Positions 7,121 to 16,502 of a stretch of 64,000 nt of DNA are shown here, in pieces. Source of the stretch: Buttiauxella sp. B2 (GTDB lineage: Bacteria > Pseudomonadota > Gammaproteobacteria > Enterobacterales > Enterobacteriaceae); contig NZ_VEXQ01000003.1 in assembly GCF_006376615.1 (NCBI RefSeq), forward strand, positions 124,001-188,000. The letters are read 5' to 3'. The notes under the pieces are model-generated. The model had not been told where the DNA came from and did not search any database. It worked only from the letters and a program-made list of their open reading frames with translations. Positions within the stretch are counted from its first letter, which is position 1; each line of letters starts with the position of its first letter. The position numbers and the translations under genes are program-made.

Positions 7121-7381
7121 TTACTTGTAGATAACCGCAGTACCGCTCATTTTTCCGTTGGTGTTAGCAGAAGTGATCGAGTACGCTTTTGCGCCAGCCG
7201 CTTGTGCTTTATCAGCCAGTTTTGCTTCCAGGCCATCCAGAGTTGTTGCGCCATCCGCTGAAACTACACCCACTTTATTTAAGTTCTGAGCTTCAGATTG
7301 GGTGATAGATTGTGCAGCGAACGCACCGAAAGAAAGAGTAGTAAGGGCAATAGCAGCTACAGCATATTTGATGGTTTTCAT
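7121..7381 (-). CDS. ybiJ: YbiJ, YhcN/DUF1471 family periplasmic protein
   Basis: An 86-residue secreted small protein. Residues 1-22 form a signal peptide (MKTIKYAVAAIALTTLSFGAFA), followed by the DUF1471 module ending in SGTAVIYK. By eye it is very similar to E. coli YbiJ (NKxGVVSADGA..LDxLEAKLA). Family members such as BhsA, McbA and YhcN respond to stress and affect biofilm or envelope properties; no specific function is established for YbiJ. It ends leftward into a strong terminator. Together with mcbA it brackets the variable block to its right. Confidence 0.93.
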   Translation of the reverse strand: MKTIKYAVAAIALTTLSFGAFAAQSITQSEAQNLNKVGVVSADGATTLDGLEAKLADKAQAAGAKAYSITSANTNGKMSGTAVIYK

Positions 7382-7742: not shown

Positions 7743-8564
7743 ATGGAGATTAAGCTGCACTCCAACGCCACCACGACGCCGCGTACTCGCAAATATATTC
7801 AGAGTTCTGAAAAATCCGACAGTGATTTGGCTGAAGAGTTGAATATTTCTGTGGATACCGTCAGGCGTTGGCGTAAGCGAGATGACTGTTATGACAAATC
7901 TCATCGGCCGAATACTATTCATCGCGCTTTGAGTCATGAGCAAGAAGCCATACTGGTCTTTTTGCGTGTGCGTCTGTCTCTTTCTCTTGATGAGCTTCTG
8001 GAAGCCGCGCAATTGCTGGTACAGCAGGGTATTTCCCGTGCGAGTGTCAGCAGAATGCTGCAAAACTGGCAACAATCGCGTCTGACAAAACCTGATTTGA
8101 AGCAACCTGTCGGGCATCTTCACCTTGACGTATTCCCTCTGCCGGAAAGTATTAGCCATAAGCACGGCTTGTTGCTGGCTTTCAGCGACCCGGTTTCTGG
8201 TTTTCTTGCTGTGGCGCTGCGTGAGCGAGGTGAGGAACAACCGCTTGATGCGCTGGTAGGCTTTTTGCAGCAGGGTTTGTTGTTGCAGGTACTTTCATTG
8301 ACTTCACGTTCTACTGAGCTCACTCGGAAACTGGCTGAAAAGCTTCAGGTTCCATTACATGAAGTACTGCCAGAAGCGTGGCAGGAGCGGGCGGCAAGTG
8401 GTGAATGGGCACAGCCACTGGAACAGTTACTGAACGGTGAGCGTTACGATAAACGGTTAGGGTTTGGTGCTGTGTTACTAGAATTTGAGGATTTGCTGAA
8501 TCATCGAATTATCCGCAGCCGGTTGAAGAATCTCACGCCGGCTGCGTGGCTAAAAGCTAAATAG
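7743..8564 (+). CDS. HTH protein resembling a catalytically degenerate IS481-type transposase
   Basis: A 273-residue protein. An N-terminal helix-turn-helix (about residues 24-46, with NISVDTVRRWRKR) and a second one (about 80-108, with GISRASVSRMLQNW) are followed by VGHLHLDVFPL. That segment resembles the start of the DDE/RNase H core of IS481/IS3-like transposases, where Asp129 would be the first catalytic residue. The segment where these enzymes carry TDNG reads LTSRST (about 186-191), so the second Asp is missing, and the C-terminus is short. No terminal inverted repeats were seen. ATG 7743 was preferred to TTG 7740; an AAGAGG lies just upstream. It is convergent with the PTS operon. A domesticated DNA-binding regulator is the likeliest reading; the function is unknown. 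Confidence 0.75.
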   Translation: MEIKLHSNATTTPRTRKYIQSSEKSDSDLAEELNISVDTVRRWRKRDDCYDKSHRPNTIHRALSHEQEAILVFLRVRLSLSLDELLEAAQLLVQQGISRASVSRMLQNWQQSRLTKPDLKQPVGHLHLDVFPLPESISHKHGLLLAFSDPVSGFLAVALRERGEEQPLDALVGFLQQGLLLQVLSLTSRSTELTRKLAEKLQVPLHEVLPEAWQERAASGEWAQPLEQLLNGERYDKRLGFGAVLLEFEDLLNHRIIRSRLKNLTPAAWLKAK

Positions 8565-8571
8565 TTCGAGT

Positions 8572-8877
8572 TTAATCCATCAAACTCAAAGCGTGATCGA
8601 GGATCTTCTCGCCGTTGACCATCCCGTAGTCCATCATATTAATGGTTTCAACGCGCTTATTAAGCGGGGCGGCGAGTTGCTTGCAATCTGCCAGCTTGTA
8701 AGCAATTTGTGGGCCGAGTAAAGCGCAGTCAAAGCTGTTGATCGCGTTTTTAAAATCGCTAATTCCTTTTGCCTGAATCTCAACATCAAGCTCGCGTTTT
8801 GCGGCGGCTTCCTGCATTCGTTTGACGACCAGACTGGTCGACATCCCTAAATCACATACCAGTAGAATCTTTTTCAT
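8572..8877 (-). CDS. PTS EIIB component, lactose/cellobiose family
   Basis: A 101-residue cytoplasmic EIIB domain. The phosphocysteine loop is VCDLGMSTSL near the N-terminus with Cys8, as in ChbB-type proteins, and GPQIAYKL is the typical later motif. It receives phosphate from an EIIA and passes it to sugar bound by EIIC. Its start overlaps the end of the upstream aminopeptidase gene by 26 bp, so translation is coupled, and it is the last gene of the leftward operon. No EIIA gene is in the window, so a partner such as ChbA from elsewhere would be needed. Confidence 0.93.
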   Translation of the reverse strand: MKKILLVCDLGMSTSLVVKRMQEAAAKRELDVEIQAKGISDFKNAINSFDCALLGPQIAYKLADCKQLAAPLNKRVETINMMDYGMVNGEKILDHALSLMD

Positions 8878-10321
8878 TATTGTTTCCTTTGCAAAGGTCG
8901 AGTAAGTATTGCGTCAGTAGTAGAGCAGGGCGGCCACTGGCCTGCGTGAATTTACCGCGGCTAAGTGCGGTGCCGCTGACATCTAAATGTGCCCACGGCG
9001 ACTGATGGCAGAACTTACTCAAAAATTGGGCGGCGCAGACAGCTATAGCAGCATTATTAGGTGGCGTGTTGGTGAGGTCGGCAATATGGCTTTTGACCTG
9101 TGAGTCAAAACTTTCATCGAGTGGTAGCGGCCAGATTCGGTCCTGGGTTAAGTTTGCTGCCAGTTGTAGCTGCTGGCTGAGTTGCGCGTTATTACTCATC
9201 AGGCCGGAAATGTTGTAACCCAGCGCTTTAACCACCGCACCGGTCAATGTGGCGACGTCAATTAATGCTGCCGGATTAAAGCGCGTTGCGGTATAGCTGA
9301 GTGCGTCAGCCAGCACCAGACGGCCTTCGGCATCAGTGTTAATAATTTCAACGCTGTGACCGGCGTGGGATTTCACCACATCTCCAGGCAGCATGGCATT
9401 TTCACCCGGCATGTTTTCTGCCAGTGCCATTACTGCGACCACATTAAGTGGCAGTTGCAGCGTTTTGACTATCTCCATCATCCCGAAGACTACAGCGGCA
9501 CCGCACATATCATATTTCATGGTGCGCATCCCTTCGCCTTCTTTGAGCCACAGCCCACCGGTATCGAAAGTAATACCTTTGCCGACAAACGCATAATATG
9601 GTGCATTTTCTGACGCACCTTGCCAGCGCAGTGTTACCAGACGTGGCGGGTTGTTACTGCCTTTTCCTGTTGCATCAAGGCAACCCATACCCAGCTCGCG
9701 AATGGCATTTTCATCAAGAATATCGCAGTGCGTCTGAGGATGAGCGTTTGCCCAATTAGCAGCTTGCTGTGCAATATCCTTTGGGCGACAGTCGTTTGCA
9801 GGTGTGTCGGAAAGCTTGCGGGATAACAACATCCCTTTAGTAATGGCCTGCGTTTGCACAGCCAGCTCAGTGGCAAGCGCGTTGTGCTCTGTAACCAGAA
9901 GCCAAAGTTGCCCATTACTTTCTTGTTGCTGCTGACGATAGCCCAATTGTGGGAGCTGATAAAAGCGATTCATCACTGCAACTAACAGTGTGCGCAGGCG
10001 AGCAAAAACAGTGCGGTCTGCCAGATTAAAAGCGGAAATATCCAGCGCGATGGGATGCGAAATTGGGTTGGGTAAAAGTGTGCTGAGGCTTTCAGTTAAC
10101 TGGCGCAGGATTTCAGGGTGCTCAATCTGATTTGAAGGCAAAAGTGTAAGTTGCTGGCAGTGTCCGTTTAAACCAAAAGTGGTGGATTGCGGTTCATCAG
10201 AATGCGCCATTTCACCAAGCAGTGGGTACAGCGTGTCTGGCCACGAAGGTGTATGCGTTTTCCACAATATCAAATGCGCATTTGCTGGGTATTGTGCAAG
10301 GGTTATAACCTGGCATCTCAT
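8852..10321 (-). CDS. M17 family leucyl-type aminopeptidase
   Basis: A 489-residue cytoplasmic zinc/manganese aminopeptidase of the leucine aminopeptidase family. The catalytic domain shows VGKGITFDTGG (Lys248, Asp253), KYDMCGAA (Asp271) and the signature NTDAEGRLVLAD (328-339, with Asp330, Glu332 and Arg334), so the dinuclear metal site looks complete. The N-terminal half (about 1-150) is divergent, as usual. It does not look like the PepA or PepB housekeeping enzyme. ATG 10321 overlaps the stop of the glycosylasparaginase gene as ATGA and is preceded by GGAG. Its place between a glycosylasparaginase and a PTS EIIB suggests trimming of imported peptides or glycopeptides, which is inference. 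Confidence 0.92.
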   Translation of the reverse strand: MRCQVITLAQYPANAHLILWKTHTPSWPDTLYPLLGEMAHSDEPQSTTFGLNGHCQQLTLLPSNQIEHPEILRQLTESLSTLLPNPISHPIALDISAFNLADRTVFARLRTLLVAVMNRFYQLPQLGYRQQQQESNGQLWLLVTEHNALATELAVQTQAITKGMLLSRKLSDTPANDCRPKDIAQQAANWANAHPQTHCDILDENAIRELGMGCLDATGKGSNNPPRLVTLRWQGASENAPYYAFVGKGITFDTGGLWLKEGEGMRTMKYDMCGAAVVFGMMEIVKTLQLPLNVVAVMALAENMPGENAMLPGDVVKSHAGHSVEIINTDAEGRLVLADALSYTATRFNPAALIDVATLTGAVVKALGYNISGLMSNNAQLSQQLQLAANLTQDRIWPLPLDESFDSQVKSHIADLTNTPPNNAAIAVCAAQFLSKFCHQSPWAHLDVSGTALSRGKFTQASGRPALLLTQYLLDLCKGNNNEKDSTGM

Positions 10322-11286
10322 ATAATCTCCTCCGCGGTGATACGTTGCCGATAGGCGTCAAGCCAGGCCTGATCTGCAGGACGAATCAGCGTGTGTTTTC
10401 CTTCGCGTGTGGTCAAAAAAACCGTCGGTATTTGCGCGGGAGTGGCAACCGAAAACGAGAAGTTATCAATGGTGGTAGCGGCACCGTATTCTCCGCGATT
10501 ATTCATGCACACCACCGACAAATCCCCAGCGCGACCAAATCGGGAAATAAGCTGACTTTCCAAATCGTAAACCGCAGATTCAGCCGCCTGTTGTGGCGAC
10601 ATGCCGCGACCCATACGGCTGACAATTTCGTAGCTGATACAGCCCTTCATTAAGTCTTCGCCTAGACCGGTCGCTGTTGCGGCACCAATCTGGCTATCGG
10701 CATAAAAACCTGAACCGGAGACGGGCGAATCACCTACACGGCCTGGACGCTTCATAAACAGTCCGCTGGTTGATGTCGCGACACACATTTGTTGATTCTG
10801 GTCGAGAGTAATCACGCCAACCGTATCGTGCCCAGTGTAGGGGCTCAAACCCCGATCCAGCGTTTCACGTTTACGTTTCAGGTAATGCTGGTGGGCGCGG
10901 TCCGTCAGCATGTTTTTGCGTTCGAAGCCTTGGTTGAAAGCCCAGGTTTGGGCACCTTCACCCACCATAAAGCTATTAAAGCGTTCACGGCTTAATGCCT
11001 GCGCGACCAGAATAGGGTTGGCGATGTCGCGGATACTGGCGACGGCGCCAATGGCAAGCGTTGAGCCGTCCATAAACGCTGCGTCGAGTTCGACAACACC
11101 TTGCTCGTTTGGCAATCCGCCGTAACCGACGGATTTGTAGTAAGGGTAATCTTCCACACAAGTGACAGCGCGTACAGCAGCCTCGCTGGCCTCGCTTTTC
11201 CCCTGTAACAAACGTGCGGCTTCACTGACCCCTTCCCAGGCCATGCGCCAGGTCGCTATCACGCCCCAGTTTGTCGATAACGTCAT
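10318..11286 (-). CDS. N4-(beta-N-acetylglucosaminyl)-L-asparaginase-like Ntn-hydrolase
   Basis: A 322-residue member of the aspartylglucosaminidase/isoaspartyl peptidase family. These enzymes self-cleave before a threonine that then becomes the nucleophile; here that is Thr155 in GHDTVGV. Downstream, GRVGDSPVSGSGFYAD (182-197) and ATGLGEDLMKG (204-214) match the substrate-binding parts of glycosylasparaginases better than those of plant-type asparaginases. There is no signal peptide, so it acts in the cytoplasm, unlike exported bacterial homologues. Expected reaction: GlcNAc-Asn to aspartate plus the amino sugar. It starts 7 bp after the EIIC stop and overlaps the aminopeptidase start. Whether it prefers phosphorylated substrate is unknown. 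Confidence 0.9.
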   Translation of the reverse strand: MTLSTNWGVIATWRMAWEGVSEAARLLQGKSEASEAAVRAVTCVEDYPYYKSVGYGGLPNEQGVVELDAAFMDGSTLAIGAVASIRDIANPILVAQALSRERFNSFMVGEGAQTWAFNQGFERKNMLTDRAHQHYLKRKRETLDRGLSPYTGHDTVGVITLDQNQQMCVATSTSGLFMKRPGRVGDSPVSGSGFYADSQIGAATATGLGEDLMKGCISYEIVSRMGRGMSPQQAAESAVYDLESQLISRFGRAGDLSVVCMNNRGEYGAATTIDNFSFSVATPAQIPTVFLTTREGKHTLIRPADQAWLDAYRQRITAEEII

Positions 11287-11293
11287 GTTTTAC

Positions 11294-12601
11294 TTACTCC
11301 GTGGCGGGTTTAGTTGATGAGACAAGAGCCTGTGTTTCATTGGCCCGATATTGCTTGTCCACAACTTTAAGGAATGGCAAATAGATGATGGCGCCTATAA
11401 GTAGGTTAATAAGCTGAATGATTGCGCCACTGAGATGCCCGGTAACGATAAATCCGCTTAGCACCGGAGGCAGCGTCCATGGGATGTACACACCGGTGGT
11501 GGTAGCGACCCAACCCAGTGACATCGAGATGTATTGCACGGTGACCAGTACCAGCGGGACAAGGTTGAACGGGATAAGCATTATCGGGTTCATTATGACT
11601 GGCAGGCCAAACAAAACTGGCTCATTAATGTTGAAGATGGAGGAGCCTACGGCAAGACGCGAAACATTTTTAATATGCTGGCTGCGGGCAAACAGCAACA
11701 TAGCAATCACCAGAGACAAAGTTGCACCCGCGCCCCCCATCCAAATCATGTCGTAGAACTGCTCGGTCACGACATGCGGCGGCAGCAAACCGGCTTGTGT
11801 TGCGGCCAGGTTTTCCATCTGGTTTTCCATCCAGAAAGGACGCAGGATGCCGTTGACCATCGAGCCGGAGTTAATACCGACAGACCACAAACTGGTGATG
11901 CTAAAGCAGGTAAACAATGCGCCGACATACGAGGTGCCAAAGTGACGAATTGGCGTGGCGAGGACTTCATAAACAAACTGGTGAATGGTGTGGTAATCCG
12001 TTCTGGCAAACAGCACGCGTATAGCGAGCGCAATAACCAGAATCAGCAGAGAAGGAATCAGTGCGGCAAATGATTTCTGCACCGCAGGTGGCACGCCGTC
12101 GGGCATACGAATCACCCAGTTTTGGCGCAGCATCCAGGCAAACAGTTCAGTGCTGGCAAGAGCACCCAGCATTGCCACAAACAATCCTTTTGATCCCAAC
12201 CACTCCATCGGGATCAGATTGCCAATCTCCTGAGTCTTAGCAAAAGGGGTGAGGATTAAAAAGCACGACAGCGACAAAATCCCGGCCGACATTTTGTCGA
12301 TGTCATAGCGTTCGGCCAGGCGATAGGCGACCAGGAAACTGATAAACACCGCCATGGTAGAGAAAATGGCATTAAACGGAATTTCGATGGTGGCAGACCA
12401 GCCTTCACCAAAAATCGATGCCATAAACTGTTGATAAGCAGTGCTTGGGAAAGAGGAGATAACCAGCAGGATTGAACCAACAATAATAAATGGCATAAAC
12501 GAGATATACGCATCGCGAATGGCTCCGAGATGGCGTTGTTGTGCCATTCGTCCCGCTAGCGGCATCAGCTTTGCTTCTATTGCGGCCATCAGGTTTTTCA
12601 T
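11294..12601 (-). CDS. PTS EIIC component, lactose/cellobiose family
   Basis: A 435-residue inner-membrane sugar permease with about ten hydrophobic segments. The family motif NEPVLFGLPVIMNP lies in the C-terminal half and the N-terminal MPFIIVGSILLV is also typical of ChbC/CelB-type EIIC proteins. The frame is open to 12634, but ATG 12601 has a GGAG ribosome site 9-10 bp upstream and gives the family-like start MKNLMAAIEAK, so it was chosen. It is the first gene of a tight operon: EIIC, glycosylasparaginase, aminopeptidase, EIIB. A CRP-like site and a 7-bp inverted repeat lie upstream. Confidence 0.93.
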   Translation of the reverse strand: MKNLMAAIEAKLMPLAGRMAQQRHLGAIRDAYISFMPFIIVGSILLVISSFPSTAYQQFMASIFGEGWSATIEIPFNAIFSTMAVFISFLVAYRLAERYDIDKMSAGILSLSCFLILTPFAKTQEIGNLIPMEWLGSKGLFVAMLGALASTELFAWMLRQNWVIRMPDGVPPAVQKSFAALIPSLLILVIALAIRVLFARTDYHTIHQFVYEVLATPIRHFGTSYVGALFTCFSITSLWSVGINSGSMVNGILRPFWMENQMENLAATQAGLLPPHVVTEQFYDMIWMGGAGATLSLVIAMLLFARSQHIKNVSRLAVGSSIFNINEPVLFGLPVIMNPIMLIPFNLVPLVLVTVQYISMSLGWVATTTGVYIPWTLPPVLSGFIVTGHLSGAIIQLINLLIGAIIYLPFLKVVDKQYRANETQALVSSTKPATE

Positions 12602-12622
12602 TATTACCGCTCCGTAAGTAAT

Positions 12623-12642
12623 CACAAGAGACAATTCTTGTG
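12623..12642. promoter_or_regulatory. Inverted repeat in the leader of the PTS/glycosylasparaginase operon
   Basis: CACAAGA-N6-TCTTGTG is a perfect 7-bp dyad 21 bp upstream of the EIIC start codon. It could be an operator for an unlinked regulator or a small leader hairpin near the ribosome site. Confidence 0.45.
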
Positions 12643-12675: not shown

Positions 12676-12691
12676 AGTGAGATAATTCACA
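12676..12691. promoter_or_regulatory. Probable CRP site of the PTS operon
   Basis: AGTGAgataatTCACA fits TGTGA-N6-TCACA with one mismatch and is centred about 83 bp before the EIIC start, a sensible place for a catabolite-activated promoter. Confidence 0.5.
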
Positions 12692-12727
12692 GATACCTGA
12701 CAAAAGTATCATGTGATTACTTAAAAT

Positions 12728-12763: not shown

Positions 12764-14065
12764 TTACATCAATCCCAGCAGTCTTGGAATAAACAGAGAA
12801 ATCGACGGGATGTAGGTAATCAACATCAGCGAGACAAACAATGCCGCGTAGAAGGGCAGCAGTGGTTTGATGAGATTCTGAATTTTAACCCCAGTGATGG
12901 AGCAACCCACAAACAGTGCGCTACCGACCGGTGGTGTCAGCAATCCAACGCAAAGGTTCGCCACCATCATGATGCCGAAATGAACCGGATCCATACCCAA
13001 CTCTTGCGCAATCGGCAGGAAGATTGGCGTAAAGATCAGCACCGCAGGCGTCATATCCATAAAGATGCCGACAATCAGCAAAACGATGTTAATCAGCAGA
13101 AGAATAACCAGCGGGTTATCCGAGATACCCATTAACGTGTCGCTGATCATATACGGAATATCAGCATTGGTCATTGCCCAGGACATGCCGACAGAGAAAC
13201 CAATCAGCAGCAGAACAATGGAAGTTGTGACCACCGAATCCAGAATCAGTTTCGGCAAATCGCGCCATTTCACTTCACGGTAAATCAGCACCGAGAGCAC
13301 GAAAGTGTATACCACAGCGATTGCTGAGGCTTCCGTTGCGGTGAATACGCCGCCCAGAATCCCACCCATGACAATGAGCACCAGCAGCAAACTTGGCAGC
13401 GCATCCAGGAACGCTTTTGCAGCCATCGCACAAGTTGGGCGTGCAGACACCGGATAGCCGCGTCGCTTAGAAATAATCCAGCAGACCAGCATTATCGATA
13501 GGCCCATTAATATGCCAGGTAAATAACCAGCCATAAACAGCGAGGCTACCGACACGCCACCCGCAGTAAGTGAGAAGACGATCAGAACGTTAGAAGGTGG
13601 GATCAACAACCCCGTAATACAGGATGAAACGTTAACTGCGGTTGAGAACGCCGGATCGTAACCCTCTTTATTTTGAATCGGAGACAGCGTGCCTCCGACG
13701 GCTGCCGCTGCGGCAACAGCTGAACCGGAAATCGAACCAAACATCATGTTCGCCAGCACGTTAACGTGGCCCAGAGAACCCGGAATGCGGCCAACCATAA
13801 TTTGCGCCAGGTTTATTAACCTGATGGCTATTCCGCCGCTGTTCATTAGCGTACCGGCAAAAATAAAGAACGGAATCGCCAGCAATGCGAAGTTATCCAG
13901 GCCATTTGCCAGGCGTTGTGAAACGGTGATCACTGCGATATCCCACGGGAACATCAACAGCATGGAAGATACAGTGGCAATCCCAATTGCAAATGAGATG
14001 GGAACTCCGATAAACACCAGAACGAAGAACGCGCCAAATAAGGTGAGGGCGATGTAAGTTTCCAT
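12764..14065 (-). CDS. dctM: TRAP transporter large permease (DctM family)
   Basis: A 433-residue integral membrane protein of the DctM/SiaM type, the ion-coupled translocation subunit of a tripartite ATP-independent periplasmic transporter. About 12 hydrophobic segments are visible. Typical stretches are the N-terminal VFIGVPISFAIGIA, GSISGSAVAAAAAVGG and LCVGLLTPPVGSALFVG. Its start touches the dctQ stop by one base (14065), so the two are cotranslated. The substrate is not predictable from this subunit. Confidence 0.93.
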   Translation of the reverse strand: METYIALTLFGAFFVLVFIGVPISFAIGIATVSSMLLMFPWDIAVITVSQRLANGLDNFALLAIPFFIFAGTLMNSGGIAIRLINLAQIMVGRIPGSLGHVNVLANMMFGSISGSAVAAAAAVGGTLSPIQNKEGYDPAFSTAVNVSSCITGLLIPPSNVLIVFSLTAGGVSVASLFMAGYLPGILMGLSIMLVCWIISKRRGYPVSARPTCAMAAKAFLDALPSLLLVLIVMGGILGGVFTATEASAIAVVYTFVLSVLIYREVKWRDLPKLILDSVVTTSIVLLLIGFSVGMSWAMTNADIPYMISDTLMGISDNPLVILLLINIVLLIVGIFMDMTPAVLIFTPIFLPIAQELGMDPVHFGIMMVANLCVGLLTPPVGSALFVGCSITGVKIQNLIKPLLPFYAALFVSLMLITYIPSISLFIPRLLGLM

Positions 14066-14562
14066 TATTTACCCTCTTTGCAGACTAATGACTGGGCGTC
14101 GGTCAAGATAAAGTAGAGTGAGTAAAACACCATGATCGCGCCACTTAATGGCAACACGATATAGACATAACCCATAGGGATTTGCAGTGCCGCAGAGAGC
14201 TGTGAGGTGGCTAATGTTTTTTCAATGAGCTTCAACCCGCCGTTGACGATGACCATTCCGGAGAACAACATAACCAGCGTGTTGATGAGGATGCCAAGCA
14301 GTGGCTTTTTGCTATCTGGCAGCATCATTGCAAGAAAATCGATGGACAGGTGGCGCTGGGCGCCAACCGTATATGACGCGCCGAGCAGCCCGACCCAAAT
14401 CATCAGAAAACGTGCCAGTTCATCCGTCAATGTGCTGGGCTGATTAAGTACGTAGCGGCTGAAAACCTGCCATACCACACAGAAAACCAACGCTATCATC
14501 ACCAGTACTGAAAAGGTGGCAATAGTTCGGTCTACCGCAAGCTTGATGGGCTTAAGTATCAT
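14065..14562 (-). CDS. dctQ: TRAP transporter small permease (DctQ family)
   Basis: A 165-residue protein with four predicted membrane helices and the family pattern VFSRYVLNQPSTLTDELARF followed by MIWVGLLGASYTVG. It pairs with DctM in the membrane. Here it is a separate gene rather than fused to the large subunit. The gap to dctP is 151 bp and carries an ERIC-like repeat and a smaller hairpin, unusual spacing for this three-gene operon. Confidence 0.92.
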   Translation of the reverse strand: MILKPIKLAVDRTIATFSVLVMIALVFCVVWQVFSRYVLNQPSTLTDELARFLMIWVGLLGASYTVGAQRHLSIDFLAMMLPDSKKPLLGILINTLVMLFSGMVIVNGGLKLIEKTLATSQLSAALQIPMGYVYIVLPLSGAIMVFYSLYFILTDAQSLVCKEGK

Positions 14563-14630
14563 TTTTCATACCTGAGAAAATTAGCTTTGCCAATGCGGGT
14601 GAAGTTGCTTTACCCGCAATATATCTACCC

Positions 14631-14702
14631 TATACCCGTTATCCGTTTAAGCTGCAGGGGCGTCGTTAACGCCTACCTGCAACTTGTATGCTAATGGGTA
14701 TA
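14631..14702. repeat. Short ERIC-like palindromic element between dctP and dctQ
   Basis: A 72-bp element begins tatacccgtt and ends aatgggtata, terminal repeats like those of ERIC elements. Inside is a nested inverted repeat AAGCTGCAGG / CCTGCAACTT around a GC-rich centre. It resembles an internally deleted ERIC. In the transcript it would fold into a strong hairpin just after the dctP stop codon (14714) and could favour dctP over dctQM. A second small hairpin, GCGGGT / ACCCGC, lies at about 14596-14617. Confidence 0.6.
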
Positions 14703-14713
14703 CGACGCCAAAA

Positions 14714-15700
14714 TTACTCAGCCGCAGCTTCGAATTTAGCCAGCAGTGCAGCCTGTTTTGGATCTTTGGCGAAGTCGTCATACAGCGGTTTTACTGCTGC
14801 GCGGAATGGGGCTTTATCAACGGCCAGGATCGTTGCGCCCATTGCTTTAGCCTGAGCACGTGAATCTGAATCGACTTTTGCCCAAAGTTTTTGTTGATAT
14901 GCTTCGGAGTTTTTCGCCGCTGTGATCAGAATTTGCTGCTGTTCTGGGGAGAGCTTGGCCCAGGTTTTAGTGGAGATAACGAGGAAGTCAGGAATAGAGG
15001 TATGTTCATCTTCAGAGAACACTTTGGCGATTTCGATATGGCGAGTTTGAACCCATGACGGAACGTTATTTTCCGCACCATCTACCACGCCTTGCTGCAT
15101 GGCTGTGTACACCTCACCAAATGAAATAGGTGTTGGCGAACCCCCCATTAGCTCAACCATTTTCAGTGTTGTTGGGCTGGCCTGCACACGAATTTTTAGC
15201 CCTTTTAAATCTTCTGGTTTGGTAATTGGTTTTTTCGCGTAAAAACTACGGGTGCCAGCAACATAAGCTGAAATAGCAAAGAAACCTTTATCTTTTGTCG
15301 AGTCCATAATTTCTTTACCGACTTCACCAAATACCACGCGATCAAAATGCGCCTGGTCTTTAAATAAGTACGGTAAATTATAAATAGCATAAGTGTTGTC
15401 GAAAGATTCTAAATCACTGGCAGAACCTTTAGTCATATCTAGCGCACCATTTTGCAACAGCTCTAGTGTTTCGCGGGCGCTGCCCATTTGGCTACTAGGA
15501 TAAATGCGAATACGTATATTGCCGTCAGAAAGTTGTTGTACCTCTTTGGCCAGTTCTTCAAAAGCCTGGTGTACTACATGGCTGCGTTCCAGGTTATGAG
15601 CGAGCTTCAAGGTTATCTTGTCTGCAGCATTTGCACCTGTGGCACAGAGTGTAATAAGTGAGGCGCATAGCAGTTGGCGAGGTAAGGTTAGAAATTTCAT
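14714..15700 (-). CDS. dctP: TRAP transporter substrate-binding protein (DctP family)
   Basis: A 328-residue periplasmic binding protein. Residues 1-25 form a signal peptide ending ATGANA. The mature part has the DctP layout: ITLKLAHNLERSH, the SSQMGSARETLE stretch, and GLKIRVQASP, whose Arg171 is the position that usually grips the carboxylate of the ligand. The ligand is therefore probably an organic or sugar acid. By eye it is closest to the YiaO/UxaP-like group, but the exact substrate is not clear. No dehydrogenase or regulator of a known TRAP catabolic pathway flanks it. Confidence 0.92.
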   Translation of the reverse strand: MKFLTLPRQLLCASLITLCATGANAADKITLKLAHNLERSHVVHQAFEELAKEVQQLSDGNIRIRIYPSSQMGSARETLELLQNGALDMTKGSASDLESFDNTYAIYNLPYLFKDQAHFDRVVFGEVGKEIMDSTKDKGFFAISAYVAGTRSFYAKKPITKPEDLKGLKIRVQASPTTLKMVELMGGSPTPISFGEVYTAMQQGVVDGAENNVPSWVQTRHIEIAKVFSEDEHTSIPDFLVISTKTWAKLSPEQQQILITAAKNSEAYQQKLWAKVDSDSRAQAKAMGATILAVDKAPFRAAVKPLYDDFAKDPKQAALLAKFEAAAE

Positions 15701-16063: not shown

Positions 16064-16324
16064 CTATTTATAAATAGTCGCGGTGCCGAACATACGCTTA
16101 TCACCGCTAGCAGAGTTAACAACAAAACCTTTTGCACCTTCTTCTTTCGCTTTCTCACCAAGTTTGGCTTGTAGATCGTCAAGGTTCGCCGCGCCGCTGA
16201 CAGAAACGGTTCCTGCCGGGCGAAGTGGGCCGGTGTTGTCCGAAGACAATTCCTGGGCTGCCATGGTAGCAAACGGTAATGCCGCAAGGGTGACAACCGC
16301 AGAAAAATACAGCAATTTTTTCAT
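16064..16324 (-). CDS. mcbA: McbA (YbiM), YhcN/DUF1471 family protein
   Basis: An 86-residue secreted protein with an N-terminal signal peptide ending ATMAA and a DUF1471 domain (LRPAGTVSVSGAANLDDLQAKL, ending FGTATIYK) that matches E. coli McbA. In E. coli McbA is controlled by McbR (YncC) and linked to colanic acid production and biofilm. ATG 16324 was preferred over GTG 16330, since GAGG lies 8 bp upstream of the ATG but only 2 bp from the GTG. It is a paralogue of ybiJ, and the two bracket the accessory block. Confidence 0.92.
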   Translation of the reverse strand: MKKLLYFSAVVTLAALPFATMAAQELSSDNTGPLRPAGTVSVSGAANLDDLQAKLGEKAKEEGAKGFVVNSASGDKRMFGTATIYK

Positions 16325-16502
16325 AATCACATCCTCATCACTTTTAGGGGTCGATTAAAAAATCATCAACACTAAAAGTGTAGGTGTAATGCGACAAATA
16401 AAAGACGCAAAAAATTGATGGACTTGTGCTTGTTTTTTGAACGACATTTCTTGACGAAATACTTACAAATCAGTTAGATACAGGATCATGATTTTGTTGG
16501 TT

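Follow-up and report, generated by a model that had tools for sequence, protein, structure and literature searches.

A candidate glycosyl-asparagine utilisation operon with an IS481-transposase-derived regulator in Buttiauxella sp. B2

Introduction

Which substrate brings together, in one bacterial operon, a sugar transporter of the phosphotransferase system (PTS), a cytoplasmic hydrolase of the glycosylasparaginase type and an aminopeptidase? The question is raised by a stretch of 64,000 nucleotides from Buttiauxella sp. B2 (contig NZ_VEXQ01000003.1, positions 124,001 to 188,000; hereafter the window), in which four leftward genes encode the PTS component EIIC, the hydrolase, an M17 peptidase and the PTS component EIIB, and a regulator gene converges on them. 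The operon is read here as a glycosyl-asparagine utilisation system under an IS481-derived regulator and CRP, a reading that is given a probability of about three in four on comparative sequence evidence.

In the proposed pathway, EIIB and EIIC of the operon, together with an EIIA from elsewhere, would import and 6-phosphorylate N-acetylglucosaminyl-asparagine (GlcNAc-Asn) or a very short GlcNAc-Asn peptide. The M17 aminopeptidase would strip the residues that block the alpha-amino group of Asn, and the glycosylasparaginase would split the beta-aspartyl linkage of the phosphorylated form into aspartate and 1-amino-GlcNAc-6-phosphate (1-amino-GlcNAc-6-P); loss of ammonia from this amino sugar would then supply the Nag pathway with GlcNAc-6-P. 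The regulator, a domesticated transposase of the IS481 type, would bind an operator (O1) upstream of the EIIC promoter and control the operon together with CRP. If the reading is true, PTS-driven use of N-glycoprotein debris extends from Enterococcus to many Gram-negative bacteria, a one-residue marker becomes available for finding glycosyl-asparagine transporters, and a second testable case of a transposase turned local metabolic regulator stands beside PfaR, the regulator of the pfa omega-3 fatty acid genes.

Kindred loci in Firmicutes

The ega locus of Enterococcus faecalis is named for the use of GlcNAc-Asn (Combret et al., Res Microbiol 175:104169). As far as its accessible text goes, the locus holds genes for a glycosylasparaginase, lactose/cellobiose-type EIIB and EIIC, a GntR regulator, a dipeptidase and an oxidoreductase-type protein (PMC11160706). 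It resembles the Buttiauxella operon in combining a glycosylasparaginase with lactose-type EIIB and EIIC and a peptidase gene; it differs in its GntR regulator, dipeptidase and oxidoreductase-type gene, where Buttiauxella has the IS481-derived regulator, the M17 peptidase and no EIIA. Enterococcus raffinosus and Enterococcus gilvus carry a gene row of GntR, M20-type dipeptidase, hydrolase, EIIB, EIIC and EIIA, and the Buttiauxella hydrolase is 57–58% identical to their homologues.

The alf-2 locus of Lacticaseibacillus casei, in the available part of its description, likewise links a peptidase gene with one for a cytoplasmic glycosylasparaginase, AsnA2. This enzyme splits GlcNAc-Asn, and its product, 1-amino-GlcNAc, breaks down to GlcNAc and ammonium. 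The alf-2 route differs in its use of a major facilitator superfamily permease that needs 6'-fucose, followed by a fucosidase and a sugar kinase (PMC6960285). Because kindred loci are known in Enterococcus and L. casei, the Buttiauxella operon is regarded as a Gram-negative variant. A first-pass annotation of the window had known of no standard gene name for such a gene set, which in the partly accessible Enterococcus literature is ega (PMC11160706). No description of a Gram-negative version, or of its regulator, was found in a literature search whose coverage left out most subscription papers.

Conservation of the gene set

Loci were fetched by hydrolase alignment, and the best 80 of 447 were used, 63 being gammaproteobacterial and 17 Firmicute by record title, with neighbours counted within 4.5 kb. 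Since the hydrolase alone served for fetching, the neighbours form a separate readout. In the 63 gammaproteobacterial loci, EIIC was present in 63, the regulator in 61, M17 in 59, EIIB in 16, EIIA in 12 and an M20 peptidase in none. The neighbourhood survey of EIIC, glycosylasparaginase, M17 and EIIB that the first-pass annotation had proposed as a check was thus strongly positive for EIIC and M17. The 17 Firmicute loci, four of which (L059, L061, L062 and L064) come from a single assembly, included an M20 peptidase in 14, EIIA in 13, EIIC and EIIB in eight each, and M17 in none. M17 and M20, two unrelated peptidase families, occupy a similar slot in the two phyla. A short GRDB-like gene (glycine reductase selenoprotein B family; e.g., L054:7373-7897) also accompanies the hydrolase in eight of the 17 Firmicute loci and in none of the 63 others.

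Among 295 genomes of the order, 11 had a hydrolase match at E <= 1e-40, seven of them close (E <= 1e-135); EIIC and M17 lie beside the hydrolase in all seven and in none of the four distant ones. The gene set is kept across Enterobacteriaceae, Hafnia, Serratia, Providencia and Histophilus, and the fetched loci also include Enterobacter, Klebsiella, Kluyvera, Lelliottia and marine Vibrionaceae; distant blastn gave no match in Escherichia coli. The closest hydrolase loci are from Buttiauxella (93–95% identity), followed by Cedecea and Enterobacter/Enterobacteriaceae strains (80–85%). The set sits between YhcN-like genes in Cedecea and elsewhere in other genomes, some with flanks taken from their sequences to be bepA/yfgD-like and hda/uraA-like genes, so that the linkage is not simply an inherited position.

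Transporter specificity

The EIIC aligns almost end to end (E 7e-114) with 3qnq, Bacillus cereus ChbC, its sole PDB match at E <= 1e-5. This structure, deposited as a cellobiose-type EIIC, is taken here to be the diacetylchitobiose transporter, with Glu334 and His250 presumably the key sugar contacts. On the alignment, with numbers counted by hand, Glu327 of the Buttiauxella protein stands opposite Glu334 and Asn244 opposite His250. All 73 hydrolase-linked EIICs examined, ten of them Firmicute proteins, keep Glu334 and have Asn at the His250 position; the EIIC of E. raffinosus has this Asn. By contrast, His occupies the position in 36 of 36 EIICs without a hydrolase link, a set of six of the seven other matches in the Buttiauxella genome and 30 of the 44 matches from 11 enterobacterial genomes with no hydrolase match at E <= 1e-40, which leaves aside one partial Buttiauxella match and 14 matches without a returned locus and is not every EIIC of those genomes. 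The switch from His to Asn follows the hydrolase across two phyla and so points to a common substrate that is not chitobiose; the simplest candidate is the substrate of the hydrolase itself.

The same switch leaves some room for another sugar: the PTS might import a different N-glycosyl asparagine, such as glucosyl-asparagine from bacterial N-glycosylation, with a hydrolase tuned to it. The altered pocket points away from chitobiose and cellobiose, sequence by itself is silent on which sugar replaces them, and the genes occur in Histophilus and marine Vibrionaceae. Against this stands the Enterococcus system, which has the same type of EIIC and hydrolase and is named in print, in the part of the literature available, for GlcNAc-Asn; this alternative is considered unlikely.

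Identity of the hydrolase

The hydrolase carries the hallmarks of a glycosylasparaginase and not those of an isoaspartyl peptidase. Residues W13, T155, T173, R183, D186 and G207, presumably including the autoprocessing Thr, the substrate Arg/Asp/Gly and the GlcNAc-side Trp, are invariant in 81 of 81 aligned rows; Thr155 lies within GHDTVGV, and the best PDB match is the glycosylasparaginase of Elizabethkingia (E 1.7e-52). The class proposed by the first-pass annotation is thus supported. No signal peptide was apparent by eye, a difference from the relatives L023-L025, which have one.

Arg14, next to Trp13, is Arg in 81 of 81 rows, Asp, Glu and Glu in L023-L025 and Asn in the Elizabethkingia enzyme, and could, purely hypothetically, be the reader of a 6-phosphate. 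Including this one, 28 polar or charged columns differ between the groups, and Arg is likewise found at the position in a further, apparently cytoplasmic relative (L022:8743-9705). At K51 and K214 both groups have Lys or Arg, L022 excepted. In this L022 relative, Ala, Val and His replace the nucleophile Thr, Arg183 and Asp186, and it is likely to be a pseudoenzyme.

Were the hydrolase instead an isoaspartyl peptidase or asparaginase and the PTS devoted to an unrelated sugar, the two would be merely co-regulated scavengers of nitrogen and carbon. The common superfamily (PF01112) and an E value of 4e-34 against the beta-aspartyl-peptidase model NF007589 (EcAIII type) speak for this, but the 117.8 bits behind that value are far below the cut-off of 567, and the EIIC switch goes with the hydrolase; the alternative is improbable. 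A role of the operon in the use of chitobiose or some other GlcNAc disaccharide, duplicating Chb, is scarcely credible in spite of the sole PDB match of EIIC, since Asn replaces the His250 of ChbC in all 73 hydrolase-linked EIICs, family scans of the operon proteins found no glycosidase, and a hydrolase and a peptidase have no evident role for disaccharides.

A putative regulator derived from an IS481 transposase

The sequence of the gene at 7743-8564 identifies its product as a domesticated IS481-transposase derivative with a decayed catalytic site. It matches the IS481 transposase model NF033577 weakly, with 54.9 bits against a cut-off of 224. The intact IS481 element of genome G015, present in two copies 97% alike, has the N-terminal block KLHANAATTP in common with the regulator and keeps the catalytic triad (VHVDVKYLP, LTDNGKEF, NGMVERF; the triad positions are presumed assignments). 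In the regulator of the window, the first region is kept as LHLDVFPLP, the region of the second Asp has changed from LTDNGKEF to LTSRSTEL, and the third site is not conserved. An AlphaFold2 model built on an alignment of 32 sequences (mean predicted local distance difference test score 88.6) had retroviral integrases and the IstA transposase as its top Foldseek matches (E from 1.7e-6), and a template modelling score of about 0.37 means that domains, not whole proteins, match.

Matches to the regulator at E <= 1e-85 occur in exactly seven of the 295 genomes, those with a close hydrolase. The next match is the G015 element, over nearly its full length (E 5e-56). Below it come 49 more genomes, with E values of 1.6e-40 to 2.7e-29 and alignments that mostly cover the first ~115 residues. 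The gene could be taken for a decaying IS481 remnant lying nearby by chance, as the IS481 model recognises each of the 32 members scanned (best E 2.1e-21), but 61 of the 63 gammaproteobacterial loci have it close to the hydrolase, in one or the other of two positions, there is one match per genome, its DNA-binding half is its most conserved part and its operator is conserved, which makes a chance remnant extremely improbable.

In all 12 loci opened from the 49-genome set (L163-L174), a large synthase gene cluster lies beside the N-terminal-matching gene. The one synthase sequence inspected has tandem carrier domains and is read as pfaA, so the neighbouring gene is taken to be PfaR. PfaR, in the accessible text, models on MuA, is without catalytic residues and is regarded as a regulator (PMC4744452). 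It is the nearest studied relative of the window regulator, with a transposase-like fold, lost catalytic residues and a homologous N-terminal helix-turn-helix (HTH) domain that the intact IS481 element also has; it differs in serving another operon and in a C-terminal half that finds no match. A single origin of the two finds no clear support in a tree of the N-terminal parts, with 10 of the 12 PfaR proteins and a warning of long branches: PfaR joins the intact IS481 element (support 96/91), the regulators are not recovered as one clade, and the two groups do not come together.

Operator and promoter

Loci in which the regulator and EIIC genes diverge share a conserved 22-bp element like AACTAATCATATGAGACTTATA. 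A matrix built from 45 divergent loci (29 distinct sites) was applied on both strands to 15 loci of other gene order; these counts cover loci with both genes inside the distance filter, outside which L089 falls. In each of the 15, the best site of the whole locus lay upstream of EIIC, at 105–135 bp in 13 and at 35–36 bp on the other strand in the two Enterovibrio loci. In the window, O1 scores 16.3 and the next site 7.3. The regulator-less loci L038 and L041, used as a negative control, reached 6.9 and 3.9 at best, the L041 match lying 290 bp before EIIC, inside M17.

Of 61 promoters, 53 have a site like the CRP consensus TGTGAN6TCACA, with at most two mismatches, between the operator and the start of EIIC, compared with 4.6% of shuffled segments; as the loci are related, these are not 53 independent events. 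The spacing of the sites suggests a CRP promoter of class II, with O1 upstream. O1 itself is established by comparison of sequences, while its binding by the regulator, the sign of the control and an inducer are postulated.

A wider regulon found no favour elsewhere: the operator pattern has one match each, at the operon, in the genomes of L082, L063, L053 and L046 (<=3 mismatches). In the Buttiauxella genome, matches with 0-1 mismatch lie only at two EIIC-promoter sites, and 17 more have two or three mismatches against 10 in the reversed control, so that a few further sites may exist there; since Buttiauxella sites were among those used to draw the pattern, it is circular for the window. The idea that the operator descends from the ends of IS481 was rejected, as the G015 element ends in about TGGGTCCCTGATGATTGG and CAGGTCCCGAACGATTGA, unlike the operator.

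Weighing the proposed pathway

Several observations weigh against the reading of the operon as a glycosyl-asparagine system. The patterns used to fetch the loci derive from ten hydrolases previously noted next to PTS genes, which favours the PTS-linked subfamily, and the rows of the Asn/His and promoter comparisons are related by descent, not independent. EIIB is not nearby in 47 of 63 gammaproteobacterial loci, M17 in four (all Vibrionaceae) and EIIC in more than half of the Firmicute ones (near just 8 of 17 hydrolases). The regulator is near none of the 17 Firmicute hydrolases, so regulation is lineage-specific. The Buttiauxella operon is without EIIA, the second operator (O2) is weak, and EIIC scores 447.6 bits against TIGR00359 (cellobiose EIIC; cut-off 434), so that automatic annotation would say cellobiose.

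Since the operon has no EIIA and most gammaproteobacterial loci have no nearby EIIB, PTS parts must be supplied in trans; three lactose-type EIIA genes lie elsewhere in the Buttiauxella genome. Import of glycosyl-asparagine by the EIIC/EIIB pair, as first proposed, is thus supported for the class of substrate and needs amending for the machinery. The genome also has two NagA genes, which count in favour of the glycosyl-asparagine reading. Direct release of GlcNAc-6-P, which the first-pass annotation had suggested, does not agree with the chemistry of L. casei AsnA2, which, in the part of that report available, points to a 1-amino-GlcNAc species as the initial product (PMC6960285). No hydrolase of this kind tested on a phosphorylated substrate was seen in the accessible literature. 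Trimming by the peptidase stays conjectural, given the four Vibrionaceae loci without M17 nearby and a pepV mutant of L. casei that, in the same partly available report, grew like the wild type on fucosyl-GlcNAc-Asn (PMC6960285).

Association with CutC

Of the 17 Firmicute loci, 14 have CutC (PF03932) beside the hydrolase (L054, L059, L061, L062, L064, L070, L081, L092, L096, L097 and L100-L103), or 11 of 14 when the single-assembly four count as one, and two of the three loci without it end at a contig edge. In Gammaproteobacteria it is directly downstream of the hydrolase in an Oceanospirillales bacterium (L038:8972-9712), divergent from EIIC in Histophilus (L042:5805-6536) and not near the hydrolase in the other 61 loci; Buttiauxella has one CutC, away from the operon. 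That cutC mutants of E. coli are sensitive to copper is attributed, in the accessible text, entirely to loss of the small RNA MicL (PMC6538781), so that the CutC protein itself may have some other role.

The recurrent adjacency suggests a role of CutC in glycosyl-asparagine catabolism. A bolder version, tentative and rather doubtful, would define a glycosyl-asparagine PTS class of two phyla, marked by Asn at position 250 and controlled, in Gram-negatives, by a pathway-sensing transposase-derived regulator, in which CutC handles 1-amino-GlcNAc-6-P or GlcNAc-6-P, in trans in Buttiauxella. CutC would then stand beside the hydrolase in Clostridia, the Oceanospirillales bacterium and Histophilus because it handles the hydrolase product. 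No literature link of CutC to glycosylasparaginase was found, most subscription papers being outside the coverage; if true, the linkage gives a family with a reassigned role a concrete candidate substrate.

Operon layout and flanking genes

The features are collected in Table 1. The first-pass annotation had placed the four leftward genes correctly to the base and on the right strand, with 7 bp between EIIC and hydrolase and overlaps of 4 bp (hydrolase/M17) and 26 bp (M17/EIIB), and had put Thr155 in the right motif; its span of 8572..12601 takes in these four genes and leaves out the regulator gene and the promoter elements.

Table 1. Genes and promoter elements of the operon, in window coordinates.
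Feature	Position	Strand	Details
PTS EIIC, lactose/cellobiose/chitobiose type	11294..12601	-	PF02378, TIGR00410; ATG at 12601
Cytoplasmic glycosylasparaginase (PF01112)	10318..11286	-	nucleophile Thr155; W13/R14/T173/R183/D186/G207
M17 leucyl-aminopeptidase-type peptidase	8852..10321	-	PF00883
PTS EIIB, lactose/cellobiose type	8572..8877	-	PF02302
IS481-transposase-derived regulator	7743..8564	+	HTH and integrase-like domain, catalytic residues decayed; convergent with operon
Operator O1 (AAGTAATCACATGATACTTTTG)	12701..12722	-	best match in the 64 kb window; matrix from 45 loci of other genera only
CRP-like site TGTGAATTATCTCACT	12676..12691	-	one mismatch to the consensus
Possible second, inverted operator O2 (AAGTAATCACAAGAGACAATTC)	12616..12637	+	weak, score 7.2, window rank 3

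The family models were passed by EIIC (TIGR00410, 447.6 bits, cut-off 236), the hydrolase (PF01112, 210 bits, cut-off 27), the M17 catalytic domain (PF00883, 372.9 bits, cut-off 25) and EIIB (PF02302, 67 bits, cut-off 23.6), the last being below the cut-off of TIGR00853 (79.8 vs 110). The alignment of M17 with 8pz0 runs through KGITFDTGG and NTDAEGRL.

Upstream of the operon lie genes for a tripartite ATP-independent periplasmic (TRAP) transporter, DctP/DctQ/DctM (12764-15700). They were considered as possible partners and excluded, because among the 80 loci only the four from Buttiauxella have them next to the operon, while the Cedecea-type loci L030-L035 do not. Two YhcN-like small-protein genes (7121-7381 and 16064-16330) flank the region, and their homologues also bracket the operon in the Cedecea-type loci.

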